NCBI GenBank assembly: GCA_025617745.1
Contig: CM046856.1
Coordinates: forward strand, 49,852,873-49,916,872
Source: Heliocidaris erythrogramma
Taxonomy: Eukaryota > Echinodermata > Echinoidea > Camarodonta > Echinometridae
Direction of reading: 5' to 3'
DNA: 64,000 bases
Shown here one piece after another: positions 658 to 64,000 of this stretch. The notes beneath the pieces are model-generated. The model ran no database searches. It saw only the letters and a program-made list of their open reading frames with translations, and was not told where the DNA came from. Both the position numbers and the translations under genes were made by a program. Numbering within the stretch: position 1 is the stretch's first letter; each line of letters opens with the position of its first letter.

Positions 658-836
658 GTATGAACACAGAGAACTGGACAGTGCTAGAACCTGGCTGGAA
701 CCAGTTGAGACCAGTTTTCACCAGTTTGATGAAGTTCATGTACTTGGAGGTGCACACCTCGCCTTCATGCCAATGGACTACAACCTTACTGAGCCCGTCT
801 CAATTGAGGTTGGCCAGTTTTATGGAGATACAACTG
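658..836 (+). CDS. Exon 1 (module 1, beta half)
   Basis: Acceptor tgtaaag precedes it and donor gtaagc follows. It reads RTWLEPV, then FDEVHVLGGAHLAF and GDTTG, the same order as in exon 38 (CRTWLLPV, YVFDELSLRGKAHLA, GDTSG). The first base completes a codon begun upstream of the window, and the exon ends in phase 1. Confidence 0.75.
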
Positions 837-3800: not shown

Positions 3801-6800
3801 ATCAAGAATGTATTAGTATGAGGATTTAATCAAATTTTCTTATTCTTGTCCAGGTTATATCCACCTGGGATTCAAACAGTCCATGTCCATCAATATCACT
3901 CATCCTGACATCTCATTCAACACCCGGGTCTATGAAGAAGGGAGTCTGCTGATGCCTTCTCGGGCATTCTTCAAAGGAGTTGAGCTTGTGTCTTCTGGAA
4001 ATGTTAGTTACTTAATCTTATCATTCTATTTTTAAAGTGTTGGACATTGTAAAGGCAGTTCATTTTGAATAAAAAAAATTAGCTTGAGACGAAAAGCACA
4101 CAGAAAAAATTTACATTGCATGTTGTACTTGTTTGTGAACTGAAGAGCTTTTTTTATCAAGTCTTATTATACATGTAATTATAGATTTTCTGTTGCATGC
4201 AATTGTGTTTATATTTCTGGAATTGTGATAATAATATGATAATAAAATGTCTTCCCTATACCTTCTGTCATTTTTGCTACATGTACATATCAATACTATA
4301 TTTGTTTTCTAATTCCCATTTGCTTATACTTTCTGAACTTGTTCTGAAAGATCAACTGATTTATATCCCTTTCCCTCACATTATATGATTTAGACATTTA
4401 TCCACTACTCACTCCTCTTTCTACCATTCACTCTATCCCTTTTTATCCCATCTAATATTCGTTTTCATTTCTCTTTGCTGAATCTCTTTGATGTCAAATC
4501 TCCCCATCTTGTTCTCTTCCAGGCTGCAGGCTTGTTTTATGTGGTTCTCTTTATCCCTTTCCCCCTCTTTCTGTTCTTTAATTAATATATCTCTGTATGA
4601 TTCACTTTACCTTAACCCCTACCATGCCGTGGGCGGCAAATCCCACCCAAAAATTTGAGTGTTGAACATTTTGTTTAGGCTCAGAATGGCTTGAAAATCA
4701 TTCCTCATACAGAAACTTGTGCCGTAATTAAGTATTATGTTTATTCCTATGCAATATATCTTTGCCCAGTTCGCTCAAGAGAAAACGCATTAAAAGTTAA
4801 TATTTAACTCTTGAAAGTTCGTTTTTGACAATTGCTCAAAAATCCGGTGGCATGGAAGGGGTTAATGTATTGTTCTCTCTCTCCTTCAATCTTTGTTAGT
4901 CTCTTTCATTTACTTCTCTGCTCAATATTTTTCTTAGGTTGCAGGAATTAATGACTTGTTTGTCTTTGATGGTGGTTCTGTTCGTTTGGATGCCAATAGT
5001 AGCCTTGGTTATGATAGCAATCCTAGAGAGTATAACCTGTCCAGTCTTCATGTCCAAGATGGAGGTGTGTTCTGGTTGGAGAGTGTAGCTGTGTGTGATA
5101 GCATGAGCCTCACTGCTCACAATATAACTGTAAGTTTCAACACCAGAAGCCTTTTATCAGTTATATAGATACAGATCATCTCCCAGGAGATAGCAAATAG
5201 TCCTGTTTCTTAGATTTTTCAAACCCTTAATTTGTTCTCTAGTGATATTTTTTTTTTGAAACAAATTTACTCACTTTCTTCTGCATAACATATTTGATGC
5301 CATGTAGTAATACACTTGCGTATTATGTGGTTCATGTATCATTCTAAATTCTAAATTGAAATAATTATTTATCCTAATATAAGGTGCATTTCATAGCTAA
5401 TGCCTAGTTTACATTTGGCCTGCGATTTGTCTACGGAGCCCGTATCCTGCCCGTATCCCCTTTTCTGTGCGGCCTCGGAGGTAGGAGGAGGCTGTGAGAT
5501 TTTCGTACGGATTCATGGGCTTTTTTTATGAAAAATATTTATACCTTTGTTCAAAATGTCTCAAAGGTTGAACATTTGTAAACTAGTTTCTAATTTGGTC
5601 ATATTGTATTTACTGCAATAAATCATATATACCTACCTATTATGCCTGTAGTCTTGACTACGGGACCCCTTCGAGAATTTAACACACATGAGTCACAATA
5701 TTGTGCGCACCCCCCGTAATCCTATTGTCCCCTTCGCCACTCACGCGCGTCAACACGCTACGGCCATCTTCCTCTTTCTTGCTCGCCCCCGACGAGATAG
5801 GACGTATAGTCACAGCGCTCCTGAAATCAGGTCGTATAGTATCCTTTAGGTGCGCTTTTTCGCACATTTAAAGCACTTTTAGGTACCTATATTCGCTTAG
5901 ATTATAGTACTGTGTGTTTTAGTAGTCACTTTTGCCGATTGCAAGGGATTTTTGATATCCTTTTCTTGGCATTTATTTTTCCCTTTCACGGTCAGCCCCA
6001 CGTAGATATTTCTGTGTGTTTGCGGGTGTTCCGTTTGTCACCGAGCCTTTGGGTTCGGTGTTTGTTCTAACGGTTTTTTGGCTGTGAAAATCTTTTGTGC
6101 GTATCTCCCAAATAAATTTTACTTTTATTTTACTGCATTCAGTTGAAGTATTTCTTATTTTGAAAAGTATACTTTATTGTCTGTTTTATTGCAGTGGTAT
6201 GAATTCGCTGAGACCAGAGGGGGGGGCGGTTGTTTCCTGTACGGTAGCGTTCACTCGCTCTGATCCGTTAGGGGAGACGCGCCCCACTACTGCAGGGCAA
6301 CCCACGGGCTTAGTCCATGTTGGTCTGGGTTCTCAAACCATAGCCCCGTGCTAACGCCATATGGGGAACGAGTACTTTCTGGGCTGTCTCAGGTGCCAGC
6401 TGATGGGAATGCTCGAGCTAACAATTATGGACGCTCTTCGGAGCAACAGGTGTTTTCACCTGAGTGCGTGACTACTAGTGCTCCCCTATTGCTGCTTTCG
6501 AGCGGTCCAATAGCGGGTTCACACGCCTTTAGTAGTCATCGGGCACATACAGAGTCATCTCGGTCTGCCCACGCACTGGGAGCTTTTAGCTCCCAACCCA
6601 TGGCTACTGCATCTTCTTGCTTAGCCAATATGGGTGATTTGGGCGATTCTCTAGGCTTACGCCATGAGCGCTCCAATCCCTTTTTGGGAAGTGAACGTCC
6701 CTCCGCGGAGGGATCGGTTCGTGTTTCCGAAGTGGCTTCGGAGATCCGAACGAATCCGATTAAGCGTTCTAACAAAAGGGTTTCGGCTACGACTCTTGTC

Positions 6801-9800
6801 GAGCCAGCCAAGAAAAAGGCCAAGAAGAGGGCAAAAAGTGGCAAGGCTTTGCTGGCCTCTTGCCCGTCTGGCCTGGCTAACCCAGCTAGCTCCTCTCAAG
6901 CTGACATGTTCAGCATGATGCGGGCTTTTGCTCAGAATCAGGGTTGGTCCTTGTACCGGCTACTTCAACCCTGACTTCTGTCCCTATTCAGGGGTCTGAC
7001 TTTGAGACTAATCAGCCTTTTGTGTTGGATTCGTCTTTGTCTGAGTCGGTTTCGCATTCGCATGGGCGAGGAGACTTTCGTTGAACCATGCGGGGCTCTG
7101 CCTGCTGAGGCCTTTGTTAGCGTTCCTTTGTCTCTTTCCACTCGGGTGGAACCAGATTTGGAGGTGGCCTCTCAAGCTTCGTTTTTGAATCGCTTGGGCA
7201 GGCGGAGTCTCAATCGCTCGCCCTCTGTGGGGTGGAAGCGATTGCTTTGTTATCCAGATATCTCTCTGAATTTTAGTCAACCCGCGCGCAGGGTTCGACT
7301 TCGCGTTGGCGTTCCTTTGCCGGGTCATCCCGGTCCGCCCTTGCTCTGGGCGCCTTGGCGTCCGGCCCATGGCTGTTGCATCTCCTTGCTCGGCCGATAT
7401 GGGTAATTGGTGCGCGTCTTTGGGTTCAATACCCTCAGCGCACTTCTCCCATAAAGGGAGGTGAGCGTCCCTCAGCGGAGGGTTCGGTTCGTGTTCCCGA
7501 AGGGCTTCAGGGATCCGAACGAAACCGAATAAACGCTCTGAAAAGCGGGTTTCGACTTAGGCTCTTTTTGGGCCAATCAGAAGCCTAGGAAAGGGGCTAA
7601 AAGAGGCAAGGCTTTGCCTGCCTCTTGCCCATCGGGTTTAGCTAACCCTCCGGTCTCTCAAGCTGAGATGTTCAGTGTGAGATGGGCTTTGCCCAGACTC
7701 AGGGTTGGTCCCTTGTACCAGGATTCACATCCCCTGCTCTTGTCCCTTTTTTGGGTCGGACATCGAGACTAATTAGCCTTTTATGGTTTATTCTTCTTTG
7801 TCTGTGATGGGATCACATGCGCCTCCTAGTCTCGCAGCCTCGGGGCTCCGTCGGGTGAGGAGGCTTATGGCGGTTCATGCGTGAATCCGACCGTTTCGGC
7901 CTTTGTTCGTGATTCTTTGTCACGATCATTTCAGGTGGATCCAGTTTTGGAAGCGGCCTCTCAAGCTTCGGTTTCCGAATCGCTGGGGCAGGCAGAGCCT
8001 TAGTTGCTCTCCCTTTGTGGGGTAGAAGCGATTGCTTTGTTCTAAACTTTCCCTGACTTTTAGTCAACCCGCGCGCAGGGTTCGACTTTGCTTGGGTTCA
8101 GGCAGCGGGATTCCTCCGAGCGTTTTTCTCTTGCGGAGGATTTCTAGCTGGATTTTGGACGCATTGAAGCGGTGCTTCTTTTGAGCGTCATGTTTGGTTT
8201 GCAGTGGTCATAGTTTTCCACTGCAGCTGCCTCGGTCATGTTCCGTCGCAGAGTATTGGTTGGTGGCTGTCTTCGTTCCTTTCTCCCCGCTTGGGAGGCC
8301 ATCTCCGGGGACGCTTTTGTTCTCTTTGACGGACGAGACGGATTCTTCATAGATCCGCTCCCCGGAGGTGATATAGGAACTTGGTCACCTCACAGGCTGT
8401 CTTTTTCCCTTTCTCCGACTTTTGTTATTCCCAAGCCGCTCGGGAAAACTTCAGTACATTTTCGGATGGAGACTCTCGCCTCCATTCTCCCGTTGATCAA
8501 GAGGAAGGACTACGCGGTCTTGATAGTTTTCGAAGATGCGTATTTCCACTTTCCCGTTCATCGCGCTTTGCGCGATCTTCTGGGGTTTTTCTTCCTCTCA
8601 GAGACTTATCGTTTTCGCACTCTTCCCTTCGGGCAGTGCCCAGTCCCTCGGGTTCTTACTCAGGTTGTATCCGTGCTGGCAGCATCTCTGAGGCGATGCG
8701 GCCTTCGGCTATTTTTGCTACCTGGACGATTGGCTTCTCCTAGCGGAGTTGCGCAATTGTTTGTTGGGCGAGACTAGTTTGCTCGTCAATCTTACTCAAG
8801 ACTTAGGTTTCCTAATAAATTGGGAAAAGTCAGAGTTAGTTCCCACTCGCAGCCCAGTTTTTCTGGGGGCGGTGTTAGACATAAGGAATCAGTTGGCTCG
8901 GCCCAGATGAGACAGGATTCTCACCATTGTCTCTGCGGCTCGCAAGCTCTTGCTGGCCAGAAGAGTCTCGGCCAGACAGTGGCTTCAGTTTCTAGGTTAT
9001 CTAGCCAGTCTAGTCGATGTTTTAGAGGACTGCCGGCTCCTCATGAGACCCTTTCAGAGACATCTCCTCAGGTTCTTCAAGCCGGGAAAAGACTCTCTTT
9101 TGGTCTGGATTCCAGTACCAGTAAGGATCAAGTCTCTTCTCTCTTGTTGGACGAGCGAGGTGTTTCTCGCGCGAGGCAGGTCCTTCTCTGCCCCTCTTCC
9201 ATCGATATCGTTTTCGACGGACGCCTCTCGGTTGGGGTGGGGAGGACACTGCAACGGCAGCACGGTTGCGGGGGATTGGTCTCAGCTTGGGACTCTTCCT
9301 CATATCAATGTCCTGGAGTTTATGGCAGTTCTGTTGACCTTGCTCCATTTCAGAAGTCGACTTCTCAGTCGTTCGGTTCTGATTCTCACGGACAATGTTA
9401 CTGTGGCGGCATATATCAATCGGCAGGGAGGCACTCGTTCGGTTGCCCTGAATGCCCTAGCAGCTCAGCTGTGGAGGTGGTGTCGTCGCATGGCAATCAC
9501 ACCCGTGGCCTCTTTCATCCCCGGTCGGGAAAACCTCATTGCGGATTTTCTGTCTCGGGGCAGGTATCTTCCATCGGAATGGACGCTCCATCCGGAGGTA
9601 TTTTGCCGCATTCGCAGTTGCCTAGGTCCACTGGAAGTGGATCTATTTGCGTCGGTGCTAAATCACCAGCTGCCGAAGTATTGCTCCCGTGTTCGCGATC
9701 AGGGAGCATGGGCTCTCGATGCTTTCTCCCTCAGCTGGGAGAACCTTCAGGGATTCGCCTTTCCTACCTTCCAACTGATTCCACGTGTCTTGCGGAAAAT

Positions 9801-12800
9801 CAGGGAAGATCGGGCGCGGGTGCTCGTAATAGCTCCCTTTTGGCCCAGGAGGAATTGGTTTCCAGAACTTATGAGCCTCCTAAGGGCTCAACCGTTCGTT
9901 CTCCCGTTAAGAGCGGATCTGGTGTTACAGCCCCTATCGGGGATTCTTCACCACAGTCCGGAGTCTCTTCATTTGACTGCTTGGCCCCTGTCAGGGAATC
10001 TGCAAGACAGTCGGGTCTCTCTGATAGAGCCGCGGACTTTTTAATGTCCAGTCGTAGGGTTTCTACTAGGGAAATTTACAATTCCCGTCTCTTGGTCTTT
10101 TTCCTTTGGTGCAAAGAGAGAAATCAAACCCCTTCTAAGGCTCCTATTGGTTCAATTGCGGATTTCTTAATCTCGTTATTTGACAAAGGGAGATCTATCT
10201 CTACTATCCGAGGCTACCGTTCGGCGATCGGGGCCATTCATTCGGGTTTCTCGGATGGTTCGGGGATTTCCAATTCCCCGCTACTAAGTGGTTTGATTCG
10301 TTCGTTCTTTCTGAAACGACCTTCTTTTTCTAAGTTAGTGCCGTCTTGGAGTCTGCCTAAGGTCCTGGAGGCCTTGGCGAAACCTCCTTTCGAACCGTTA
10401 GGTGAAGCTTCGCTTCATCATCTTACGGTTAAGACGCTCTTTTTGGTAGCTATTGCCTCTGGGCAGAGGCGCAGTACTCTTCATGCTCTCTGTCTTACTC
10501 CTGGGAGAGAAAAGGCGTTAGATTGATTCCTAGGGCTTCTTTTGTTGCCAAGAATCAGACAGCTGCCTCTGGCCCTGTTGAGATTTTTCTTTGTCCGCTT
10601 TCTGACTTTTCTTCGGTGCGTGAGGACAAAGTTTGGTGTCCTGTAAGGGCTCTCAAATGGTATATTGATAAGACTAAGTCTTATCGTAAGGATGATCAGT
10701 TGTTCCTGATCACTAGAGAGCCTTTTTCTCCTGCCTCTCTTGATTCCATCTCTAGATGGATCGTTGAAGCTATTAGGGCCGCTGGCTCAGAGGCTCTTTT
10801 ATCCGACAGTAAGCCTCGTGCTCATGATACTCGTAGTGTCAGCACTTCTTGGGCTCTGTTTCAAGGTGTGGCGCTTGTTGATATTTTGAAGGCTGCTTAT
10901 TGGCGTTCGCCCAATTCCTTCATTTCTTGCTACCTTAGGGATGTTCCCGCAGGTGAAGTTTTGTTTGCGTCAGCCACCTTGAAGGCCGCTGTGTCTTCTT
11001 TGTAGTCTTTGGTGTAATCCTATTCCCTTCTGCTCGAAACATGCCTCCCGGTCTTTGAGTTGGCGCTGGTCTGGCATAATAGGTAGGTATATATGATTTA
11101 TTGCAGTAAATTTGTAAAATCAGCACTGATTTTCTTATTTACTATATAAATCTATATATCTACCTATGACCCTCCCTCCTTCCCCTCACCTTGCAAGCAA
11201 CATGTTTCTACTTGGGATTGCTCGCAAAAGAGGAAGATGGCCGTAGCGTGTTGACGCGCGTGAGTGGCGAAGGGGACAATAGGATTACGGGGGGTGCGCA
11301 CAATATTGTGACTCATGTGTGTTAAATTCTCGAAGGGGTCCCGTAGTCAAGACTACAGGCATAATAGGTAGGTATATAGATTTATATAGTAAATAAGAAA
11401 ATCAGTGCTGATTTTACAAGTTATTTGTAATAACTGCATATATATTGTGTTTAATTGTGATATAAATAGGTGTATGGAGGTGGTCACTTTCAGTCTAACG
11501 TGGGTCTCAATATATCTACCTCTCATCTTTTTGCGCTCTACTCTGGGGGAGAAATCAACCTAGACCATTCTGGTTTTAAGACCCAGTCTTCCATCGAGCA
11601 CGGATCTACGATGGTTAGAGGTCCGGGCCAGGGCTATGGTAAGACTCCAAAGATTTAATTTTTTGAAGACAATGCATGTTAAGTAAAAAAATTAAACTGT
11701 CTCCAACCAGATAGAGAGAAAAGTCAGCTGTGATTAACTAATCGCTGTGGATCAAGCACAAATATTGGACAAAAATGAACCAGAGAAGTAAAAATTTTAG
11801 CAAATGAAATGATTAGGAAATTGTTTGAAAGGAGGTCATGTACACATTGTTCTTCGTCATTATAAACTATGCTATTCTATTTTGGCACAAAAATGATATC
11901 TCCATTATCTTAAAACGTAATCTTGCTTGTGCTCCTGTGAATACACAATCAGAGGATGTAAATTGCCAGGAGAGCTTGTTGCAGGATTTACTTCATTTTT
12001 CTCAACTATCTCTGGGATAAAGAGTTTGAGATTTACAGGGAAGTTGGTAGTACACTGTACTGCATTTTAATTCATATTATTCCTCTGGCCATAGAACAAA
12101 ATACATTTTGTAACTCTTGTTATTTAAGACAGTGGTCCTAATTGTGTAGAAATCATTTTAATGTAGTGTTTAGACTAATGCAAAAATTAATAGTTATGCA
12201 CCTAATGCATTTTCTCGACCAACATTTCTGATTACCATTAAAACAATGCAGGTGACATGTCATCAGGTGGTAGTGGTGGAGGTCATGGTGGTAGTGGAGG
12301 TCAGGGATCAGGACAGTCTCTTGTTGGTCTAGCCTATGGATCCATCTATGAACCCACTGATTGTGGCAGTGCAGGAGGTTATGGACAGGACTATGGTAAG
12401 CATTCCTCCAGCATTTACCAGTTTTCATGAAAGAAGTTTGAATCAGTTAAGGTTTCCCAGCTATCCTGGAAATCTGAGAATCAGGGGGAAAATGAGTAAC
12501 TTATTTTTCCGTTCCGTGAAAAGTCCAGAAATTTGAGAAAAATCAGGGGGAAAATGGGGGAGTTTTGTTTTCATGAAATGCAGGGAACCGTGCAGTATAT
12601 TACCCTTTTTAAAGTGCAGAAGTTATCATTACTGATACAGTCATGTGTGGATTGCTACATGTAACTCTTGTTATTTAAGACAGTGGTCCTAATTGTGTAG
12701 AAATCATTTTAATGTAGTGTTTAGACTAATGCAAAAATCAGACTGAGGGATTTAAGGGTCCGTTATTGATATAGATATAGATATGTTAAGCAATCTGTCA

Positions 12801-15800
12801 AACAGGTTTGGTAAAGTTTACTTATATGGCAGATATTATTTTTCTGTATTTTCATGTATGTGATATTTGAAAAGCTAATTGCCCAATACTTCTGAATTTC
12901 CAGGGCAGGCACAGTTGCATTTTGATTTCTTCCAATGATCTTTCAGTAGATAAATTGGGTGTATACATGTATGTGAATTTCAAGCAGACTGAGGGATTTA
13001 AGGGTCCGTTATTGTACAAACTCTATACTTCTTTTCAGGTGGGCTGTCCTTTGGCACAGAACTTACCAAGAATAGTCTCCAGCTACTTGGGATCGGAGGC
13101 AGGGGAGGTGGAGCTTTGAAAGTGACATCACGTCATGTGATCATCGATGGTATCATATCAGCCAATGGGGAATCTTCATTGTACGTCAGTGCAGGTCAGA
13201 TTAGATTTTTTAATTCTCAGGGAAGGTGCCAAAAGTCAAATGTGCTTGTGTGAATTATATCATGCGCAGAGTGCAAAATGTCTACCATTAGATGTAAAAT
13301 TGTTGAATCAGAGTGGGTGATTTGGGTAATGGAATACAAATTAAGACAGCATGTGGATAGTTTGTGGGGAGCTGGAACTTCCATCTTGCAGACATTTAGT
13401 TAATTGGCCTTCACCAGATTATCAGACTGGTAGCTCCTGTAGATACAATGTAAATACTGTATATAGCTACATGGATATAAGTGGATGAATGGGTGAATGG
13501 ATATGGACTGATTGCTTTTGGAGGAGAGTCTGGATGCAGTGTAGGGACAGATTTTAAGTAGCTGGATGAATGGATCAATGTAAATGGATAGATGGATTGA
13601 GAGATAGATGGTCTGAGAGTGAAGGGATGAATGAATAGTAGAGCTCATTGTTAACCCGTTGGCTACTGAACTCTCAAATTCACATAGGGTTAATACAGGG
13701 ACCTCCCGTTTCCCGTAGGCAATGGGTTAATGTTGCAGGAGGAGGGTCTGGAGGCAGAGTCTGATAAGACTGAGAGGAGCTTGATGGATAGGTACATATA
13801 GATGTAGATTAATGGATGAATGAATAGATGACTATAAAGAGCTCAATGTTAATGTTTTAGGAGGAGGATCTGGAGGCAGTGTTTGGATAGACTGTGAGGA
13901 ACTGGATGGCTATGGCACCATCTCTGTTGATGGAGGGAACGGAAACACTGGTGGAGGAGGAGGTGCTGGTGGAAGGGTTGCCATCAACTACCAAAATATT
14001 GTCAACTTCAATGGGACCATAAGGGCTACTGGAGGTAACAATATCATCAGTCACTCTTGTTATCACAGTCATACTTATAATCTTCTGTTCCATTGGTCTA
14101 ATTTGTCATTTAAGGCCAAGGATTGTGAGACTAATGGTAATTGTATCCCCCGGCAGTATGCCGGAGGATACTTTGGATTCAGCAGCGTTTCGCCGCCGCC
14201 GCCGCCGCCGCCGCCGCGTCACATTCTTGTGTGCGCTCTAGCGGTCACATTTCTCGACGAATTTTTTTCAAACTTCCTGTGGACGTGTATCTTGGTAAAA
14301 TCTGGACCCCTATAGTTTCTAGTGATGCTGCCCCCAGTGTTCCGTCTTTTATAGGGTAAAAGGCCATATTTTTGGGGATAGTTTGTGTGCGCTCTAGCGG
14401 TCACATTTCTCAACGGATTTTGTTCAAATTTTGTATGAAGGTGTCTCTTGGTAAAATCTGGAACCCTATAGATTTTGGTGATGCTGCCCCCAGTGTTCCG
14501 TCTTTTATAGGGTCAAAGGTCATATTTTGATAGATGTCTTGTGTGTACTCTTGTGTGCGCTCTGGCGGTCACATTTCTCAACGGATTTCGTTCAAATTTT
14601 GCATGAAGGTGTCTCTTGGTGTAATATAAAAACCTATAGTGTTTGGTGATGCTGCCACCAGTGTTCCGTCTTTTATAGGGTCAAAGGTCATACTTCAGGG
14701 CATGGCGTGAGTGCACTCTGCAGGCCACATTTCTCAACGGATTTTGTTCAAATTTTGTATGGAGATGTATCTTGGTATAATCTACACATGTTTAATTTTT
14801 GGTGATGCTGCCCTCATTGTTCCGTCCTTTATAGGGTCAAAGGTCATTTTTCCATTTCTTGCACTCTTACTTCTGCATTTCTCGACGGATTTCGTTCAAA
14901 TTTTGCATGAAGGTGTCCCTTGGTGGAATCTAAAAATCTGTACTTTTTGGTGATGCTGCCACCAGTGTCCCGTCTTTTATAGGGTCAAAGGTCATACTTC
15001 AAGGGATGGCGTGAGTTCACTCTGCAGGCCACATTTCTTGATGGATTTCTTTCAAATTTTGTATGGAGATGTATCTTGGTATAATCTACACATCTTTACT
15101 GTTTGGTGATGCTGCCCTCATTGTTCCGTCCTTTATAGGGTCAAAACTCATTTGTCCCTTTTGTGCACTCTTACTTCTCCATTTCTTGACGGATTTCATT
15201 CAAATTTTGTATGGAGATGTATCTTGGTATAATCTACACATATTTAATTTTTGGTGATGCTGCCCTCATTGTTCCGTCCTTTATAGGGTCAAAGGTCATT
15301 TTTCCATTTCTTGCACTCTTACTTCTGCATTTCTTGACGGATTTCGTTCAAATTTCGCATGAAGGTGTTTCTTGGTGTAATCTAAAAACCTATAGTTTTT
15401 GGTGATGCTGCCACCAGTGTTCCGTCTTTTATAGGGTCAAAGGTCATACTTCAGGGAATGGCGTGAGTGCACTCTGCAGGCCACATTTCTTGATGGATTT
15501 CTTTCGAATTCTGTATGGAGATGTATCTTGGTATAATCTACACATCTTTACTGTTTGGTGATGCTGCCCTCATTGTTCCGTCCTTTATAGGGTCAAAGCT
15601 CATTTGTCCCTTTTGTGCACTCTTACTTCTGCATTTCTTGACGGATTTTATTCAAATTTTGTATGGAGATGTATCTTGGTATCATCTACACATATTTAAT
15701 TTTTGGTGATGCTGCCCTCATTGTTCCGTCCTTTATACGGTCAGAGGTCATTTTTCCATTTCTTGACGGATTTCGTTCAAATTTTGCATGAAGGTGTCTC

Positions 15801-20200: not shown

Positions 20201-20231
<31 letters not shown>

Positions 20232-47200: not shown

Positions 47201-50200
47201 TGATCCTTTGCTATCAGTCAGTAACAATTTGCACTTTTTTTTCAACTAGTTTCTTCAGTGCAAGGTCAGGGTTCAGTATCAGCTACTGGTGGCAGCGGTG
47301 GGATGCATGGTGGTGGAGGAGGCGGAGGTCGGATAGTCATCCACTTTAGTAACAACACATTCCATGGTAGCCTTCAAGTAACTGGAGGTGCAAGTGGATA
47401 TGAAGTAGGGGGTGCAGGTACTGTCTTGCTTGATGATAGAGCATCTGGTGAGAGAAAGCTACTGATCGACAATGGCTTTATTACTCCCGGCCCACTTGCA
47501 AAAGCTACGGATTATGACATAACAGGAAGTGAAGAGAGTTGCCGCACCTGGCTCCTACCAGTCTTTGATGATGGGGATCAGTATGTGTTTGATGAGTTGA
47601 GTCTGAGGGGAAAAGCCCATCTAGCAATAGCTGGTGGTGATCATCCTACCATGAATACAACTGTCACTGTGAGAAGGAGTTCTGGAGATACCTCTGGAAC
47701 CTTCCATGTTGGCCCTCATCAGGTTGGTTTTTTATTTCCATAAATTCCATTGTGATGAAGGTTATATTTCGTGGTAGCATGAGGGACAATCATTCAAAGG
47801 TTAAATTAATAATTTAAAGTTAGTGAGTAAACTTGGCGTGAGTGTGCATGTGTGTGACAAGCAATGAATGAGTGCAATTATTAATGTCTTTTTCCTCAAA
47901 TACATGTCTTGTTACCTAATATCATTATAAGATCACTTGTTCATGTTCATTACCACTGTTCACATCAAATTTTATTTCCCACATGGCCACAAATCTTATG
48001 AAGTTTTGCTGTAGTCTGTGTTCATTCTTTGATGTGATAGATATTTCATTGCTGTAAGTTCCTTTTAATCAAGTAGTATTCCAGCTTTAAAATACTGTGT
48101 TATACATGTACATGTCACAGCGTTATTTGATGGTATCAGAGGATCTATTATTTGTTTTCTCAGGATCTCACGATTGACCTCCCATCTGAACACCCACGTG
48201 CTGCCTGGAGTGTCCTTCTCTATCAAAATGGTGACCTTGAAATGCCAGCTGACCTTGAAGTCCATGGAGTGACCTTTGAACTTGAAGGGCAGCTGCATAA
48301 CGTTCGGAATCTGATCGTTGGCCAGGGTGGAGTTGTCAATATAAGGTGAGTTGAGTAGCATTTAGTTACAATTGATGTTTGCCATTGGTTGCATGCTTTC
48401 TTTACCAGATTTTTCACAATTGTGTTAAAAACATCACAGACATTGCTGGTGGTTGTTTGAACTGATGGATCTCCTGTGATTAAGCTTTGGAGCGTATTTG
48501 GTTTGCAAGACCAGCGATGAGATGTTAGACTTTTAATTGATATTGGTAGTATCAATATATTTTGGCAAAAAAAAAAAAAAATTATTAGCTTTAATCCTCA
48601 GAAATGTGTATGTCCTCTGATAATTACTTGAAGGATGTTACCTGTATAAAAAGAATACTGGTTAATGCTCTTTTGGGTCCCAGCAGACATTGTGAAAGCT
48701 CTTTAATAAGCCAGTTTGTAATTACTATTTGTGCATGTGCAAAAGGTCATTTGTACCAAATACAACTGACCTTTATATGCTGTCATTTTGTATGCACCAC
48801 GATGCGCACACCAGTATGATTGTACTTGTTAAAGGGCCCCTGCAACCAAATTGCACAATTATCCAACATGCAATTTGCTGAATCTAATGTCAGGATTTTT
48901 CATGCTCAGTTGATGACTGCAATGAAATGCTATTACAACTATTTTAATTTTGAATGTAGTGGGAATATCAAATAAGTCAGTTTGTAATTAGCATGGTACA
49001 AATGACCCTGAAATGACCCCAATCTGTATGCGCACGCGCGTTTCTTTGGGTGGATGCACTACTTGTTTAAAGGTCCACTGCAACCCAAATGCAAGTTTTT
49101 TGCTGTTGATGTGCAGGGATGCATACAACTAAATATTTTGTTATTCCAACATCTAAATATGTTTCATAGATTTTTAAATATTTTTAAAATATTTTTTCCA
49201 ACCTCCAAAGCTCCACCCTAGAAAAGCTCCAGATCTCATTTCTGCAATGACATCATCTGTCAATCATCAGTCAGCTACAATAACATGCTACAATAGACAG
49301 TGGATGTAATGTACTTCCCCCAACTCAGCACATGCTCACAATAGAATGGGATGCTTTTAAACAATACCTCCTCAATACCATTCTTTTCCTGGTGATGCTA
49401 CAGTATGTCTGACATAGCAACTACTATGTAGGCATTGTATGGTCTAATAGAACAGATGGTCATCTCTGGCAAAGCTACATACCACTGTCTCTCCTTAGCT
49501 CACTAATGATTGACAGATGATGTCACCGCATGACTGAGATCTGGAACATATTTTTTGGGCGCAGCTTAGCATGTTTGAGAAAATGATTTCAAAAAATATT
49601 TAAAAATCTATGAAACATATTTAGATGTTTGAATAACAAAATTTGAGTTGTATGCATCCCTGCACATCAACAGAAATCAACTTGCATTTGGGTTGCAGTG
49701 GACCTTTAAACAAGTAGTGCATCCACCCAAAGAAACGCGCGTGCGCATACAGATTGGGGTCATTTCAGGGTCATTTGTACCAGGTGCTAATTACAAACTG
49801 ACTTATTTGTATATTCCCACTACTTTTGATTCAAAATTAAAATAGGGTTGTAATAGACATTTCATTGGGTTTTAGTCACAAAGAACAACTGACATTCAAG
49901 CATGAATGTTAAATCCTGACATTAGATTCAGCAAATTGCATGTTGGATAATAGTGCCATTCAGAGATTTCAGAGATTTAAATTTTGAATAGTCCATGTGA
50001 GAGTGTATGAAAGTAGGAGAAACAGTTATTGTATCTCCCATCCTCAGACCATACACCAATGGCAGTGCAGGCATATCTGACACTCTTCAATATGACTCTA
50101 TAAGAGTACGAGGAGGAGGCAGGTTAGTGGTGGAGGGTGGAGTAAAAGGATTCAATCTCCATGGCAACATCCTCGTTGTGGAGAGCGGTGGTATTCTGAA

Positions 50201-53200
50201 GGCAGACCATCTTGGCTTGGTTGTGGAAGATCTCATAGTGGAGGAACTTGCAGTGATTGACCTGAACCATGTGGTAAGCTTTAGTGTTGAAGTGTCACTG
50301 TGTGCACATACATGTAGCATTGTGTGTTTTCCTGCTGTTTTAGCCATGCAAGCCATGCACATTTACATGTTATGAATATGTATGATAATACTCTGTTATA
50401 ATCATGTTTATGAACACAGTACTGATGTAAATCAATGTTTGATAAAATCCAATTTACTATAATTATTGCTTTTATTCAAGATCACTTCTTTACCACTGTG
50501 TTCATGTTTCCTTTATGTCATCATTTTTCTCAATGTTCAACAAATTTATTTAGATTTTCCTAGAAAAGTTAAATGTGAAATCACAGGTAAATTGAAAATT
50601 ATCATTGGAGGTTGCATTAAATTGACCTTTTAATATACCTGTACAACAGATGTCCTATTCAAAGTTATGCAAATCATATGAAGTGAGAATGTAAAGGATG
50701 ATGTGTATTATTATTTTTTTCTCTCAGTCTCAATTCATTGGTGGTCAAGGGTCAGGAAACTCTGGGGCAGGGCATGGAGGATTTGGAGGAGGCAGTGAGG
50801 ATCACCTCAGAGGACTCGCCTATGGAAACATGTTCCGACCAAACCACTCTGGCAGTGTGGGTGGTAATGAAGGTGTGAGGGGCGGTGGAATACTTCATGT
50901 AGATGCAAGCAACCTCATAAGAATAGATGGTGAGAGATATTAATATTTTACCTATTCACGTACTAGATTTTTTTGCTTTTGTGTGTTATGTAAATGTACA
51001 TAGAAATCAGAGACAAACAAAACCGGTAAATTTCTTTTACCGCGCTATGCTATAAACCTCACAAGCTTTTATATGTAGGAGTGTCAAAAGGTCAGCGGTG
51101 CTGATATGGCCTAATTTTATTGATTTTAGGATATGCACAATTCATACTCACTTGAAAGTGAACATGTGCTGGTTAAACTTCTGTTTAGATGGCTTTACTC
51201 CCTAAGGGGACAACACGTATGCTTGTATCCTGAAGGTTTGAAGAGGGGGAAAATCTTGTTTCATTCACATGAGTAAGTGTCTATGGCTCCTGGTAGTGTT
51301 CGGCTTGGCTCAGCTGCCCATGTCATCTTTTTCTGAGCTCTGGGTCGCTTTCCATTATATTAATGTTTCCAGTGTAGATTCCAATTAAAAATGCCTGTAT
51401 CTGTAAAACTGTTATAGACACAAATGTGTTTTTTTTTAATGTTTGACAGTACACTGCTTATTCTCTTAGGAAATATTGAGTGTGATGGAGAAACTGGCTC
51501 TGATGAGGCTGGAGGAGGAGCCAGTGGAGGAAGCATTCTCCTGGAGACTGGGATCTTCACAGGATCCGGAAACATCCATGCAAACGGAGGGAATGGTAAG
51601 TTTCCAACATTATTGACATTATTTAAAAAACAAAAAGTGCTGATGGGAGTTACTTATTATAAATGTTGCTTTGCCGCTGGTACATGTAGGTATGAATTTG
51701 TTTTCATGAATGCAAATGAAAATGAAATATAACTTAAATATCAAACATTAAAGCTATTGTGCTATGCAGTCAAAACTGAAAAATTCTTGCCTGCCCCCTA
51801 TAAGGCCCATAAGCTAGCTGCCATTATGCAAGCTCATTACTCATAGAGCACAATGTAGTTTTAGTCCCTAGCTTGCAAGTTGAGCTATCAAAATTAAGAT
51901 GTGGGCAATTCCAGTGTAACAGACATGACATTCAGACATGTGTTTGGTTTATTCAAGATATTTGTAAGCAAAATTAAAAGTCCTGAAAGACATTTCAGTA
52001 AGCGAATCAGGCGCAATTGAGGGAGATACACAGCACATTTCATAGTATGCCTCTGAATAGTTGAAGAGAAAATGAACTCTTTGTATCTGTGACGGACATG
52101 ACAAAAAATAGACGAGGGTTTTTCACTCCTGTGAATAGTTTGAGTTATGGGATTCAATTAGTGTAATTTAGGAATTAACAGAAGCTTATAATCATACTCT
52201 GAACATGAAAATAGTTTGTGAAATGATTAGACTGCAAATTAGCTTGTCAGGGATACAAAAATTGCCTAACAGACATGACACTTTTTTACAAACCCCTATA
52301 ACTTTACTTTAAAATATTCAAAGGCTCATGCAAACCTCATAACAATAATCTTCGTTCCATTCACATCAGTTTACGACCGAAAAATCAAATCTGAATTTCT
52401 TGTATGAAATAATAAGGCCCCCATTTTGCCCCCAAAGTGAATTTGTAAAGAGAATCATTGATATACCAATCAATTTAAAGGGCTTGTTCAGCTCTTTTGT
52501 TTGATACCAAACATGTCATTGTAGCACAAATATTTCTGAAGTTATCACCAAATTTATGAATTTTTGGAAGTGAACATTTTCTGTGGAATTGCCCATATAT
52601 AAATGAAAGATGAATGAATACAAAGCAAACAAAGATTTGAAATGCATATGACACACTCCATGCAGTACAAAGAACTTTGCTTGAACCTAACAACTGCTTA
52701 TACCTTACAGATGTGATTTAAAAATGTATGACCTAAGCATTGCATATAATGTGAAGTGCATAATAAATAATAAATGTACATACATAAATGAGAAAGCTTA
52801 ATAATACAATACTTTTCAATTTTCCTTAGGCTTTGGGAGTTCTGGAGCAGGAGGAGCAGGAGGGAGAATAGCTGTCTATTACACTGATCACTTATTTCTT
52901 GGTCAAATGATGACGTATGGAGGATCAGCATCGGACGTAAAGAATGGAGCAGCTGGGACAGTCTACCAGGAATCCAGAGATCCATCATTTATTCACCGAG
53001 TACTTCTTGTTGATAACAAAGGCCGTCAGGTCACAGATGTGAGTATCTAATTGCTGTTATTATTGTTATGTTATTATTATCATTAAGTCTTATTTATACA
53101 GGGTAGCCCCACCAGTGACATGCACTGTTCTCCCAGAGGGCCCTGTTGAAAGAAAAATAAAACACATAGAGATACAAAATATTCAAACGTACAATTACGC

Positions 53201-56200
53201 CAAGTTGGCGGTGTTGAATTGTCAATCTGAGATTAAGGTCTGTGGACTCGCCAGTTAATGAAATGAAAATTTGTGGGGTTGCTGAAATCCTAATTGAGTT
53301 TGGCATACTGTTCCACAATATTGGTCCATCAACTGCAATTCTTTTCTTTCCTTTTTCAGTTCTACATTTTGGTATATTGATTCTGAAAGTGCTAGCACTT
53401 CTGGTATGGTATGAGTGGATACTGTGAGATATTTAGTATTTCCATTCAGAGCATTGTATACAAATTTGATTTTTTGGAATTTCCATCTCTCCTCTATGGG
53501 AACCCATCCTAGCTTTTGCAACACTTCTGCTGTTGGGGTTCGAGTATCCACTTGTAAAATAGTATGGCCCATTCTTTTTTGTTGCTTGATGATTATATCT
53601 TTCAGGTTCAAATTGCAGTTTGACCAAACTGAACTGCAATAATCAAAATGTGGCATAATTAGCGAGTTTGCTAATTAGTTTGGCACAGTGCTCTGTAAGG
53701 AATGGCTGGAGCCTTCTAAGTAATGATATTTTTAATCCTATTTTCTTACTTATATACTCAAGGTGATCATTCCAATCAATGATTGGTCCAAGAAAACACC
53801 TAGGTATTTAAAGAAAGCCACCCTTTCCAGTCTAACATTGTCAACTGCAGGTTCACAGACATTAGCTTACTTCTGAGATGTTCTATTATCATAAACTTAG
53901 TTTTGGATGTGTTCAATACAAGTCTATTTTCCTTCACCCAATGATTTACATTATGCAAGTCTGCATTGAGGCTGACTCAATATCAGAAACTAAACATATT
54001 AGTCAAATAAGAATACAATTCTTCAAAATTGGGAGGCTTAAAATATAAATGTTTTAATTTAAGAAAGGCTTTATGTGTTTTATAATGTTTAAACAGTTGT
54101 TTTTCTGAGCATTCCAGTAGTATACATCTACATGCAGTTTGAATATGGATTTACATTGTAGGAATACATGTGGGTGTTGGGGAAGGATGGCTATCTATCT
54201 GTTTACAGGGATAAACATCATTTGCTCAAATGTAATAATTAAGCAGTGACATGGTCATCATAACTATGACAGAAATGATAAGTGATGATGTGATTACTTG
54301 AATTTAATCTTGTGTAGTGGTTACAGAGGTTACATATTCAAAGTGAGAAAGCAATGAGATGTAATATAGACTTGTCTGGACATGAATGGGCAACATGTAC
54401 TGAGTCAAGCTTATATAAATTCTTCATGTTGTAACTTCTTCCCAGACATTGATTGAAGACTATGGAGATCTTGAGACTGTTGGAACAAAGACCTGGATCC
54501 CTTATACTGTCAGTAACATGACCTTTGAAGAACTCTCCCTGCTAGGCAATGCACACCTTGTGTTTGGAGCTAGTCAAAGTCGAGAGCTGACCTTGACAGT
54601 TACAAAGGTGATTGGTCCGTCTGTTCATGAGGTTTCCTTTGGCACTCTCCACATTGGTCCTTACCAGTCCCTCCAGCTGAATGAAGTAGACATTATCCTA
54701 CCATTCAACCTCAGGCTGTACCGTTATGCTACTCTCACTATCCTTCCACCTGCAGTCACCTTCCAATCAAGCCAGAATTTTATCAATGGGAAGGTGATTG
54801 GTGGTGGTGATGTGACAGTCATTGATGCAGAGTTGACTTACGGTCGATTCGGTCAACATGTGAGCACTGGAGACTCTGCGGAAGCTACAGTTGAACTGCA
54901 CTCATTGCAGATTAGACATGGAGGAGTAGTCTCATTTACAGATGGTGTTGATGAATACAGGGTGCAAGCTGGAACTGTTAATCTGTCCCCTGGAAGTGCT
55001 CTGAAAGGACGAGCTCTGCTAATGGAAGGAGTTAATACCCTGACCATTGAGGAGACAGCCATTTTGAATGTTGACCATGGCAATTCCTTCTTACAAACTA
55101 GTGGTAAGTGGTTATTGTTTACACCTGTGAATCACAATCAAAACAAAAGGTCTTGTTCTTTTAAAGTTTTCTGATTCAGTGTCAATTTCTTCAAAAATAT
55201 ATGGGACTCTAATCTTTCTAGGGAAGGTTTGCGTTATTGTTAAGAAAGTTTAATCTCTGCAGCATAAATTGTTGGAAAAGAATGTGCAGTTTACATTTAG
55301 CAAAATTGGCCTTTTTTGATGAAGGCAGCCAGCCAGTCCTTGTAAATTGATTGTCTAGTTAAATCATTTTGAATGAATAAAAATCAACTAACGTATGGTA
55401 CGAGATATACTCATGTACATGTAAGCATCAAATCAATAAAAAAGAAAGTATATTCTTCTTCCAATAATGTGTAGAGTTTAGATCAGGAGCTGGAGGTAGT
55501 CTTGGGGGTGAAGGTGGATATGGAGAGGGTACCATCTCAAGATCCTATACGAGAACCGATATCAGCAGTCCGTACTTGTTTGGTGAACCTGGGCAATGTC
55601 ATCAGAATCCCTGTGTTAATGGAGCATCACCAGCAGCTGGAGGAGGCAAATTGCACATCAAGGCACAGACTATCATCAATCGTGGGACCATTGGCGCTAG
55701 GTCTGTGGGAATATTTGCATTTGCAGTGTTGTCTTTCATGCATTATTTTAGTATTATTTGCATTATGTGAAAGTGAATTTAATGAGAGCTGTCATGATCT
55801 CTTGTATGAGTGAATTCTTATACAGCCATAATTGTAATTTTATGGCAATTGATTTTGAAAGTTTTAGGGTCTATAAAGATTATGTCTGTTTCTGGAAAGG
55901 TGTTAGATATTCACATTTGAAAGTATTGTTTCTGGATCCTTGATACTGATGAAATCAAAGAAAAGAATGTGAATCTCAAGGATGATGACGCTTGGATTTC
56001 AGAAAAACATTCTGGAATTTAATTTTCATTATTTTTATAATAGTTTAGGGAAAGAATGATTATAAACTACTTGTTTTCTTGCAGAGGACATCATATCATG
56101 TGCATTCCAAAATATATTAGTAACATTGCCAGTGATGTGATCATAGAACAAATGGTATCTAAATTTTAAATGGGCAGATATTTTAGAGATCATACTGTTC

Positions 56201-59200
56201 AGATGTAAATGTTATTTGTAAATTTCTCTTCATCACAGTGGAGAGGATGCTCCCACCAACAGACAGGTTGGTGGTGGGTCTGGAGGTAGTATCTGGCTGG
56301 AGTGCACAAAGATTGATTCTTCAGGTAAGCAAAATGTAAAAATGTAACAAAACTTAACTTTCGTACATATTGTTGAGTATAACAGAATGGTAAGAACAAA
56401 GTGAAGAAGTAAAAAGTACTTAAAATGAATATGATACAAAGTTTGTAATAGATCAAGCTAGGACTGTTTTTGATAGATTGTGTTCAGAATTTGCACTGAT
56501 CGTTTTATTTCAAAGCTGGAGTGCTCCATCTGTACTGTTTCTGCATTAATCTTTCCCCAAGCTTTCATGCATCATATTTGTTTATATATAATTACATGTG
56601 TACCATAGATTCTATAAAAGATATTAAAGGGTTAAGGTACTGTATTACAGGTATATGTTCTTTTTAGAGGAATCAAATTAAATTTTGCTTTTGGTGGTGA
56701 TCTTACCAGGCACCATAGATGCAGGTGGTGGTAGTGGCTGGGAAGGAGGAGGAGGTGGGAGTGGTGGATTGATCAAGATTTCATATGAAGTCAGCTCCAT
56801 CATGAGTACACCAAGGGCCTGTGGAGGGATAGGCTACCAGTCTGGAGGATCAGGAATAGTCTTGCTTGAACAAAAGATGTCTGGAAGCTTTCACAATATG
56901 GCAAGTTCATTTTGCAGTATTGAACTAATTATCTGGAAGCCTAATCCATTTTTAGGTTATCTATGCAATTAGATAAAACATAGATGCAGTTTCAAGAAAT
57001 TATTTGCTTGTGGCATAAACAATTTTCAAGAATCTAACTGCCTGTGACATAAAAAGTGAAAAGTAGTATATAAGAGTCACAGTTTATAGTATCGTCGAGT
57101 TGTCAATGTACATGTACAATAACCCATTAGAGCAGAGATATTTATATAATTTGTTTGCATGTATAAGAAGTAATTGGTAAATAAAAATTGAATGACATTT
57201 CTTCATGCTGAATTGATTGCCATTGGGAATACTATCATTACAAAATCCTATAGTGTTTTTTTGTAGTTTAGAGATGACGTGCATTGTTTGTGTTTCATTC
57301 TTTTTAATTTTCTATCTCGTAGATGTATATCACAAACTGTGGGAGAGAAACAGATCGCTCTGCTCTTTTAGCTGTGCCATCACCCTCTCTCAATCTGCAG
57401 ACACTCGGTATTCAAGAGGGGGGAAATGTCATTATCCAGTGTACTCCAGGAAACATTGAGACATGCATGAGTGTTGGACATGTAATTGGTGACCGAACTG
57501 GTACAATTGAATTAACTGAGGTTGCCTCGATGTTCCTTGGAGTTTGTAGTTCCTCTGGCTGTGAGTATGAAGAGCAAACAGAAATGGATCTTACAGTTAG
57601 TGTTATTGTTCAGTATGATGCTTACATCAAGATTCCAAGTCATCTGACGTTGAGAGATGGTGTTACCTTTGACCTCTGTGGAACAGTAGATGGTATTCAA
57701 GATGGAAGTGTTGACATCAGGAGGGACGGTACGTTCCTGGCCAGTTATCCTGCAAGGACTTTGCCTCAAGACTCGGAGGTCAACGAGCTTGGCATCCTGC
57801 AAATCAGCAATGTACACATCTATCAGGATGGCACATTTGATGTGTCTCAGAGGTGTCCATATTTCAACACAAAACTTGATCTTGACTTTGATACTTTTGA
57901 AACCCTCTACGAGTCATATTTCAATCCAGGAGCCTTTGACCTAATCACAGCACATCCAAGCATGGAACCTGCTGGAGATCCTCTAGAAGATATAATTTGT
58001 AGAGATGATGGAGAACTTATCTTGTTGTCAGGTCAGACCTGCTCATTGCCTACAGGAAGCTATGACTATGCATCCATTGTTATTCATGGTGGAGCTGTAT
58101 TGAAGATCCTAGGCGATGAAAATGGGACTGCGCTCACTGAGATTTCAGTGGTAGAACTTCAGGTAAATCCTGGAGGGCTAATTGATGGGAAAGGAGCAGG
58201 TTTGAGATATTTTGGAGTCTCAACATCAGCAGAAGGGGGTAGTTATGGTGGCTATGGCGGAAACTCTGAAGAACCTCCATTTGGGAGTGTCATCGATCCA
58301 ACGGATTACGGCACTTACGGCTCAGGCAGCAGGGGAGGTGGTCAGCTGAAGCTAGTGGTCGTGAGGTGTGCTGTTATTGATGGGGATATTATCATGGATG
58401 GTGGTGATGTTAGTTTCTATAACCAAGGAGCTGGAAGTGGTGGCAGTGTTCTCATTCAGACACCTTGTCTCCAGGGTCATGGTACCATTTCGAGTCGAGG
58501 AGGAAATGCAAGCACTGGAGGTGGTGGAGGTGGAGGAGGAAGGATTTCTATCCAATTTACTGATGATGACAACAAGTTTATGGGTACTATGCAAGTAGAT
58601 GGTGGGCGTGGTTCAGGTTCTAGTGGTACTATTTACCTGCAGTCACATAGGGAAGAAAAACATCTTATCCTGACTGGCTCCACGGACATCGCAACCCCAA
58701 TAACATCTGATATTTTGAGTAACATCCGTCAGATTGATATTCTCCAGATTACCCAAGGATACAAAGTGGAATTAGACCTTAATATTACCATTGGAGAACT
58801 GAGAGGAGATTTAAGTGGTCTAGTTCTGCTACTTGACAATTACACCATGCTAGTAGATTCAGTTGAGATTGATCACCTAGGTGCACAGTGCTCATTTGAC
58901 ATCAGGGAACATGCCGGACTCATTCTTCCAGATTCCATAATCATTCCAGGAACTTTGAATTTAGAAGGCATGCTGGTAACAGGATTTTTCATGCTTGGGG
59001 AAGGAGCATCTGCTACTGTATCAGGTACCCTCATGGCAACATCAATAAGATTGCAAGAGAACTCCTATCTCATCGTTAATAGTACTGCCATCATTGGCCA
59101 GATGGCTACACCTGGAAACATGGATATTGAAAGGCTTATCATTGATGTCAATGCCCACCTTGCTCTGAGTGAAAGCAACACTATAATTACATCAGACTTC

Positions 59201-62200
59201 CAAATGCATGAGTTTTCAGAACTAAGTGCGAATTCAGACCTGAAAAATTTATCCATTATCTGTAGGCATGCCTACATTGCTACAGGTGCCCATATATCTG
59301 TAGATTCTGGTGGACTTGTTGATGGAATGGGAAGTCCATCAGACCATAGGTCGGGTGCCAGTTATGGTGGTGAAGGGGGTGTGAATACTGGAACAGCTGG
59401 TTTGACCTATGGTTCAAGCTCCACCCCCTTCATGCTAGGTAGTGGAGTCACGTATGGCTCTTCCAAAGTTCGTGGAGGAGGGACAATATCCCTTGAAGTA
59501 GAATCAGATCTGATATTAGAAGGGATGATATCTGCAAATGGGCAAAGTTCTTCAGAAATTGTTGGTGGTGGCTCTGGAGGAAGTGTGAACATCCAGGTAA
59601 ATGTTGTCTTTGAAGGTCATGGTACAATCAGTGCCAATGGAGGTGCAGGAAGTGGATCTTCTACCTCAGGTGGTGGAGGAGGTCGCATTTCTCTTTCATC
59701 AACCAACAGTAACTTTTATGGTATCACTGAAGCTCATGGAGGTAAAGGACACAATAATGGTGCTGCTGGTACAGTTTACATCACCACGTCTGTGGGTACT
59801 TCTTCTCAAAGATCCTCCTTGGTTGTTGATAATGCAGGTAGCATCAACATCGGCAGTGCAGTCTTTGATGCAAAGGAGACAGACATCGCTCTCGATATGG
59901 TTATCATAAGGCAGTATGGACAGCTCAGAATTAATAGTCCTCCACATTCCACAATCACAATTACCAATCTGGAAGGAGACAATACAGGGTTATTACTTGT
60001 TACTGCCAACCAGAAACTGTTCCTCGCAAGAGATCAAGCCATTGCAACTTTTTATTACTTGCCGTGTGCTCTTGATGTAGGGGAAAATGCAGAGGTATAC
60101 CTTCCACCAAACATTTATATCTCAGAATCTTCGTCCACAGAAACATCTTTTAAAATAGCTGGACAATTAACTGGTGTAGCAAATATTGTGATTGGAGCGA
60201 ATGCATCTATGATCATTGGTATCACAGCTCATTCTGCAGTCTTTCTTGCTCGTAATGAGCTGAAAATTGATCCACCAGGGACTTTCTCAGCTACATCAAT
60301 TGATGTTTATGGACTTGGCCGACTAGAATTTGAGTATTCAACAGAGACACCTATCAAACTAGAGTTGCTAACTGGGTTGAAAGTCAGATATGGTGGCACA
60401 GTCCAAGCAGGATGGCTGAAAATTGATACTCCCTCTGTCGAGGTGGAATATGGAGGAACAATATCAAGCACAGGAGGTGGCTTTGGATCAGGTGCAGGTC
60501 CATGCCCAGGACAGATTAACACAGGAGGTGGTTCAGGCGCTTGTCATGGTGGCTCAGGGGGTTTCGCATCCAGTGGTGCAACAACACCTCATCAGGTAAT
60601 AGGTAGTCTGTATGGCACCAAGGACTTTGGAAGTGGGGGTGGCAGTAGTGAGACTGGAACTGGCGGGGTCGGTGGTGGAATGGTGTCTATATCAACAGAG
60701 ATGATAAGGATTGATGGCACAGTTAGCGCTAATGGCCAGCATGGACAGGGAACAGGTGGTGGAGGAAGTGGTGGTGCTGTTCACATAACATCAGAATCTA
60801 TCACAGGATCAGGTCTTGTCAGGGCAACTGGTGGGAATGGTGGAGAGATGGGTGGCGGTGGAGGAGGAGGGGGTCGCATTGCAATTTTTCTTTCTTCTCC
60901 AAGCAAGTTCAAAGGCACCTTTGGTACCCATGGTGGAACTGCAAAAGTAGGCAACCAAGGAGGATCATCAGGCACAGCTTTCCTTCAAACTAAGCTTGGG
61001 ATCACAACATCCAAAGAACTCTACATCAACAATGACGGTGCCGGTTCTGTTGTGCCACTTGTGACCTTGCTTAATGAGACACAGGATGAACCTCACACCT
61101 TCTCCAAGTTGACCCTTCTCAATAATGTTCATGTGGAGGTTGAGGGAGAAAATGTTGAAGTGGTGATTGACAGCCTTGAGAGTGATTCGTCCTCCCAGAT
61201 TCAGGTCCATGACACCATGATTCTTAGCGTGGAGACTCAGCAAGAGACAGGTGTCTTTCATTGTAGCTTTTTGGTGGATACTCAAGGAGAACTCAGACTA
61301 CCATCTCGTGTGACCTTTCAGGGTACAACCAATCAATTTGCAGGTAAAAATTTAAATTCCTCACATGTTTTCCTAGTTACTAGGCAAAATAATTAATCTT
61401 CTTGAAATTTGATGTCTCTGTACGAATGCTAGATCGATTGATCCTGAATAGTTTATCAAAGCTATAATTTAATGAGAATGAGCATGCATGTAGAACACTA
61501 GTTGTCAGGGGTAAAGAGGACAAAATTGATAGGGTCACAAAATTAATGTAATATTTCAGCAATGATAACCATATATTTTGTAAAATTCTTTTTGCTGATT
61601 ATATGCTTTATCCACTACACTAATGTGAAATTGCATGCTGTAGCGCAAAATTGCAATTTAGGGAATGCATATATTCAGTAGTTTTTAATTTTAAATGTAG
61701 ATGTAAAACTTGTTATTTGTAACACTATTCATAGAAGCCTACTGATATTTTTACAAGTATATTATGTATTATGCTTTACAGGTACTTTAACTAATATCTT
61801 TGAGCTGGTAGTTGGTGCCAACCAGTTTCTTTCTCTCTCCACGGAGGCTCGTACTGCTGTGTATGTTGGAGGAAGCTACACCTTCATCTCGCCTAGAGGT
61901 GTGTACAGCCTGGCTTCCATTGTCATCCAGGAACACGCTACTCTATCTCTCTCTGGGATGAGTGCGAACATGTCTGTAGGAAGGTTACAGGTGGATTACG
62001 GAGGAACTCTTGATGTCCCTGAACTGTACCTGGAGGGTAGTGAGGTGGTGGTGAATCCAGGGGGTTCCATTGATCTGACAGGAGGCAGCTTGGGAGGACC
62101 AGAACAAGGCATGGTATGTAAAACCTTATATAAGTCACTTTTTAATTTGTTAAATACCATTTCCCCATTCACCTCAGCCCGATATACAACTATAAATGTA

Positions 62201-64000: not shown

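Follow-up and report, generated by a model that had tools for sequence, protein, structure and literature searches.

Large membrane proteins with G8 domains and parallel beta-helix repeats are represented by fibrocystin, PKHD1L1 and TMEM2. Dumpy of Drosophila is reported to be an extracellular matrix protein among the largest in animals, and tension during wing development is altered in its mutants (PMC8520396). The highest published counts of proteins above 5,000 residues are those of two echinoderm proteomes, Patiria miniata (250) and Strongylocentrotus purpuratus (234) (PMC11573180). Of the six bacterial groups with the strongest tendency towards such proteins, four are members of the Planctomycetes-Verrucomicrobia-Chlamydiae (PVC) superphylum (PMC11573180). 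Here, we describe a giant gene of the sea urchin Heliocidaris erythrogramma that passes through a stretch of 64,000 nucleotides (C4:49852873-49916872; this whole stretch is referred to as the window). The part of the gene within the window encodes a chain of glycine-rich modules of approximately 400 residues. We assign a probability of roughly 0.55 to the reading of the complete product as one type I membrane protein, approximately 20,400 residues long, whose beta-solenoid rod would link the cell surface with its coat. Huge modular surface proteins and beta-helices are already known; what was not found, within the libraries and literature searched, is an animal protein of 20,000 residues made of an uncatalogued module that is shared with bacteria.

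Exon chain and gene model

In order to model the gene, a gene finder combining a frame-specific Markov model, splice-site weights and phase-consistent dynamic programming was applied to the window together with 80 kb of upstream and 120 kb of downstream sequence, and a profile of the module was added later. Coordinates outside the window are given in window numbering (negative upstream, above 64000 downstream). With the profile, 52 exons are predicted on the plus strand between 658 and 63999, and together they form one continuous frame of about 5,078 residues. The initial annotation, made from the letters of the window, had arrived at about fifty exons and 5,030 residues, and its first exon starts at the same base. 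When the profile was omitted, 51 exons and about 4,852 residues were obtained in the window; the exon at 63807-63999, absent from the first two gene models, was recovered with the profile. Run on the window only, the gene finder scored 1,978 on the plus strand (52 exons, 4,733 residues; 1,976 after masking of the retroelement), compared with 71 for the minus strand, 151 for the reversed sequence and 14-42 for five order-2 Markov sequences. The coding model was trained on the giant gene itself and favours the plus strand in this comparison, and the contrast is therefore partly due to training. Seven of the 52 exons score below 17 (11470-11638, 26000-26144, 27355-27540, 29065-29139, 29501-29606, 42359-42468 and 46887-46946). 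A tRNA scan of the window found none.

The whole gene is predicted to extend from -78187 to 151021, with 123 exons, approximately 20,414 residues and 31 modules, and exon phases are compatible along the entire chain. The window holds residues 3970-9047, about a quarter of the protein. That neither end lies in the window agrees with the candidate ends found outside it, namely a start exon at -78187 that is signal-peptide-like as judged by eye and hydropathy, and a stop at 151021. The array, earlier described as open-ended, is so in the window, but the predicted protein terminates about 87 kb past the window end. Three additional 3' exons of the third gene model (124-126) were discarded for the single terminal exon of the second.

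The repeated module

A profile of the module core gave 36 matches in the gene, 26 of them at E < 1e-20, and 14 in the window, where two cores are split in two pieces each; after merging of split cores, 31 and 12 remain, respectively. Because cores of the giant gene itself were used to construct and refine the profile, its E-values within the gene are not independent. The predicted features of the window are as follows (HMM, hidden Markov model).

658-63999, plus strand: chain of 52 exons, about 5,078 residues (gene finder with module profile)
12335-16435, plus strand: module core 1, several exons; core HMM E 1.8e-34
21843-23368, plus strand: module core 2, several exons; core HMM E 2.1e-33
23238-26859, plus strand: stretch between cores 2 and 3 (exons 23238-23706, 26000-26144 and 26695-26859); its later part is unlike the module
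30413-32224, plus strand: module core 3, several exons; core HMM E 7.1e-37
34438-35367, plus strand: module core 4, two exons; core HMM E 4.4e-29
39000-41474, plus strand: module core 5, in two pieces; core HMM E 4.5e-19 and 6.6e-12
45456-47428, plus strand: module core 6, in two pieces; core HMM E 1.8e-18 and 1.1e-12
50821-52966, plus strand: module core 7, several exons; core HMM E 9.1e-36
55582-56864, plus strand: module core 8, several exons; core HMM E 6.2e-19
57323-61343, plus strand: largest window exon, open frame of 1,357 residues; cores 9-11 and the tail of the preceding module
58280-58639, plus strand: module core 9, single exon; core HMM E 5.1e-31
59408-59782, plus strand: module core 10, single exon; core HMM E 3.2e-30
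60602-60985, plus strand: module core 11, single exon; core HMM E 1.3e-28
63807-63999, plus strand: start of module core 12, last window exon; the core runs on to 67126; spliced core HMM E 3.5e-31

Adjacent window cores are 376-465 residues apart, with a single exception of 636 residues between cores 2 and 3, and the earlier observation that whole modules recur at intervals of about 380-460 residues was thus confirmed. The motif counts given with it, about twelve copies of GDxSG and eleven of GSGGS, were too high. Strict counts in the window are 8 for GDx[S/T]G (4 with S only) and 8 for GSGGS, with shuffle means of 1.2 and 0.26, respectively. As a gauge of module number, motif counts were dropped in favour of the profile, which performs better.

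The core has an inner period of 32-33 residues (24 full cores). An AlphaFold2 model of one module, covering 59252-60598 (module core 10), is all-beta with no helix, and at moderate model confidence, among the fold families with which it was compared, the core is predicted to resemble a right-handed parallel beta-helix. This predicted fold supports the long fibre-like shape proposed in the initial annotation.

Domain order and gene ends

The glycine-rich modules occupy the protein up to residue 13,637 and are followed by an EGF array from residue 13,638 (EGF_TEN in Pfam, E 7e-75, 252 bits against a cut-off of 65). Nine VWD-LamG-EGF units cover residues 14,803-20,291, the fifth being partial at its start and the ninth at its end; VWD was matched in Pfam at E 1.8e-26, with EGF in the same exons. 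A single strong C-terminal membrane helix lies at approximately residue 20,312, with a mean hydropathy of 3.37 over 19 residues. The tail behind it is short, first basic and then acidic, and ends in EDTSL, which we take to resemble a class I PDZ ligand. Weak Pfam matches below the cut-off, such as ASFV_J13L over the membrane helix (E 0.0011), were set aside. Three inter-module stretches appear galactose-binding-like by eye. In Pfam, the first (residues 400-582) reached F5_F8_type_C at only E 0.081, the second (residues 3827-4029) had no match, and the third (residues 4831-5009, between cores 2 and 3) had none at E≤1. The signal-peptide-like exon 78 kb upstream, the EGF, VWD and LamG domains downstream and the C-terminal membrane helix together favour the extracellular placement suggested initially. 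The overall architecture of the giant protein is well supported.

Tandem paralogue and selection

In the host genome (1.06 Gb in 26 contigs), Pfam bindin was matched in two stretches (E 2.1e-68 and 4.0e-8), with no match in 14 control genomes, which makes a sea urchin host very probable, bindin being a sperm protein of echinoids that has distant relatives in sea stars. Searches of this genome, with either a single module or the C-terminal 573 residues as the query, led to the same two loci only. All 45 matches to the one-module query (69 candidates scored) lie in C4:49.57-49.94 Mb, which holds the giant gene and an upstream tandem copy. Over about 260 kb, this paralogue has its first exon, module exons and last exon arranged as in the giant gene. 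The start exon is 89% identical. The counterpart of the largest window exon, at C4:49639366-49643389, is 90% identical in nucleotide sequence across the full 4,021 bases and is 3 bases longer, and 545 of the last 573 residues were matched (78%). Long open frames are kept in both gene copies (1,357 and 1,350 residues; 2,088 and 2,071 residues). An exon with five modules, located in the downstream flank, is 92% identical between the copies, and over its 2,054 codons the ratio of nonsynonymous to synonymous substitution rates (dN/dS) is 0.22 (NG86) or 0.28 (YN00). This exon, the one compared, is under purifying selection.

Relatives of the module in bacteria

No model in Pfam, NCBIfam or PHROGs matches the module above its cut-off, and long surface proteins built from it are therefore unannotated by these libraries. 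Sequence searches of the PDB gave no match at E≤10 for the five-module exon and seven matches, the best at E 0.2, for the C-terminal exon. Plasmids and phages gave no module match, and none of the 7, 2 and 600 stretches matched in viral contigs was a relative.

In a scan of bacterial and archaeal genomes, one locus was found (L039, PWZG01000278.1; one of 421 matched stretches), in a metagenome-assembled genome (MAG) of the PVC group. Within this MAG, 52 matches reach E≤0.001. Across its phylum, matches at E≤1e-8 were obtained in 44 of 387 genomes; among the matches listed, no genome had more than nine scored candidates. The query used in the scans of the MAG, the phylum and the frames (A3) included two L039 rows. 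A profile made from the animal gene alone also detected bacterial frames (L039-L047), with E-values of 4.9e-8 to 1.8e-24, a result that is independent of the profile's training on its own gene. The first module of L039 is 32-44% identical to six cores of the window and flank, and animal and PVC modules have the core YG..P..GSGG..GGG.I.I...L.IDG.ISANG..GGGSGGSI.I...GxG.ISANGG..GGGGGRIA in common. The module is thus one concrete building block common to the echinoderm and PVC settings of giant proteins.

Most bacterial frames hold few modules each; they start with a stretch that is signal-peptide-like by eye, followed by a G8-like stretch and then tandem modules. Three frames were scanned with Pfam, and their G8-like stretches scored above the cut-off in L039 (E 3e-5) and below it in the other two (E 3.2e-4 and 2.3e-4); no EGF, VWD or LamG was matched in these frames. 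Giant bacterial frames of 14,967 (G100:C1), 10,950 (G380:C6) and 9,781 residues (G321:C449) were also observed, with only two or three module copies found in each. A tree of 28 cores (25 animal and 3 bacterial, after a length filter had removed bacterial matches that covered less of the profile) is for the most part unresolved. In it, the bacterial cores group together (94/76), next to a single long animal row (80/74). Transfer and ancient descent are alike compatible with this tree, which cannot tell them apart.

The initial annotation knew of no named animal protein of this layout. This held for the family libraries, the PDB and the literature, where no protein of such layout or motif appeared in titles and starts of abstracts among the matches listed (eukaryotic proteomes were not covered), but the module itself occurs also in bacteria.

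Repeats, retroelements and assembly

Between two exons, at 6264-11005, lie DIRS-like retroelement frames that by eye resemble RNase H and recombinase, and similar frames are present downstream, near 97-106 kb and 119-128 kb; the three scanned gave no match in Pfam. At -45610 to -44302 (L012), a frame resembles another retroelement and ends in what we take to be a GIY-YIG-like motif. Retroelement frames were rejected as exons: a first run of the gene finder spliced DIRS-like pieces into the protein, a later run kept some of these and one other likely retroelement frame, and all were masked in the final model. A tandem array of 170- and 408-base units occupies 1099-2201, with copies at about 93-96% identity on many contigs, and two intronic arrays (14227-15964 and 17221-18475) share a similar 148-base unit.

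A stretch of 22 kb is present twice downstream, at 92987-114370 and 114879-136567 (L019-L024), with 98.6-99.5% identity and flanking a gap of 500 N. The two copies are probably unmerged haplotypes; one of them was regarded as a duplication introduced by the assembly and omitted from the gene model.

Proposed function and alternatives

In the proposed structure, the N-terminal two thirds of the protein (about 13,600 residues) would be a chain of 31 glycine-rich modules, each forming a right-handed parallel beta-helix built of strands and intervening glycine-rich turns. If the modules stack end to end, a stiff rod of roughly 180-240 nm would result, assuming that each module has 12-16 coils (our own estimate) and that each coil adds 0.48 nm. 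Through the EGF array and the nine VWD-LamG-EGF units, the rod would lead to the single membrane helix and the short cytoplasmic tail with its EDTSL end. By analogy with Dumpy, we infer that such a rod most likely connects the surface of epithelial or embryonic cells with the coat that covers them (hyaline layer or cuticle). The VWD and LamG units near the membrane would bind matrix partners or one another, and the tail might grip the cell cortex, possibly by PDZ anchoring. If true, the rod model would provide a testable structural basis for the hold of embryo cells on their coat.

Several points weigh against this reading. The exon chain and the protein are predictions from genomic DNA alone, and the count of 20,414 residues depends on weak exons upstream of -40 kb and on the single counting of the near-identical 22-kb stretch beside the gap. 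Among the weak exons, which lie between -70 kb and -40 kb, one is doubtful, having a second hydrophobic peak (2.63, residue 158). The mean predicted local distance difference test score (pLDDT) is only 67 for the one-module model and 58 for a two-module model, whose joining stretch is mostly below 50, and end-to-end stacking is therefore not established by the models. Foldseek gave no significant match to the PDB (best E 0.026, TM 0.19) or to viral models (best E 0.23). Finally, no counterpart of the last 73 residues of the giant gene was detected in the paralogue at E≤1, and the PDZ-like end is therefore not shown to be conserved.

This missing tail also speaks for a protein that is cleaved near the membrane and acts as a secreted filament of matrix or coat instead of a membrane tether, and many matrix proteins that are shed or secreted contain stretches rich in VWD and EGF. 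The strength of the membrane helix and the basic stretch that follows it argue the other way, and we regard cleavage as an unlikely but serious alternative. Somewhat less probable still is that the chain is divided among a row of shorter, related genes or transcripts and does not encode one protein of 20,000 residues. The 5' introns, up to about 16 kb long, the weak exons upstream of -40 kb and the purely genomic origin of the chain would fit such a division, but the phases join throughout, and, the peak in the doubtful exon aside, a single start of signal-peptide type and a single strong membrane helix, at the C-terminal end, were found; moreover, the paralogue repeats the order of first, module and last exons. 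If the protein were a receptor in recognition or immunity, with repeats that vary so as to bind microbes, the tandem duplicate would be in keeping with that role, and VWD and LamG are binding domains in other proteins. With only two loci in the genome, and with a low dN/dS on the one exon tested, which holds modules and not the C-terminal units, we consider this quite improbable. A decaying or misassembled stretch without product, as the 22-kb duplicate beside the gap and the retroelement-like frames in introns might suggest, is very hard to reconcile with long open frames in both copies, dN/dS well below 1 and the control scores.

In a wider extension of the tether model, animals and PVC bacteria would share an uncatalogued beta-solenoid module that builds some of the longest proteins, and in the sea urchin it would form a membrane-anchored strut of approximately 0.2 micrometres from microvilli to hyaline layer or cuticle, perhaps after transfer from bacteria. 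We put this forward only tentatively, as in its entirety it is improbable.

Comparison with known systems

Dumpy is not known to have beta-helix modules, and its ZP domain was not among the seven families matched at E≤0.1 by the last exon of the sea urchin gene. The start exon scored below the cut-off for G8, the domain of PKHD1, PKHD1L1, TMEM2 and CEMIP (16.3 against 22.9 bits, E 0.0093). The nine G8 matches in the host genome are all on C16, in three clusters, two of which are approximately 130 kb apart and in opposite orientation. With teneurins, the sea urchin gene has the EGF array in common (EGF_TEN above the cut-off). The topology is unlike the type II topology of teneurins, as the sea urchin protein has a signal-peptide-like start and a C-terminal membrane helix, and no match to the YD-shell barrel was found in the exons scanned, a subset of the gene. 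The combination of VWD and EGF is shared with VWD-EGF proteins. Three glycine-rich plant proteins (At5g11700, At4g32920 and At5g47020) may have a core comparable to that of the module and, likewise, a membrane helix at the C-terminal end.

In predicted fold and coil stacking, the module may resemble the right-handed parallel beta-helix passengers (VacA, pertactin, HMW1/HxuA and Ag43) and tailspikes, from which it differs in having glycine-rich turns and in standing in a eukaryotic, membrane-anchored, multi-domain chain. In sequence, proteins of PVC bacteria have the module core in common with the sea urchin gene, as seen in the profile matches. Their spacing is often about 300-330 residues (e.g., six modules in one frame of 4,355 residues) and 226-516 in other frames, in contrast to about 400 in the sea urchin gene.
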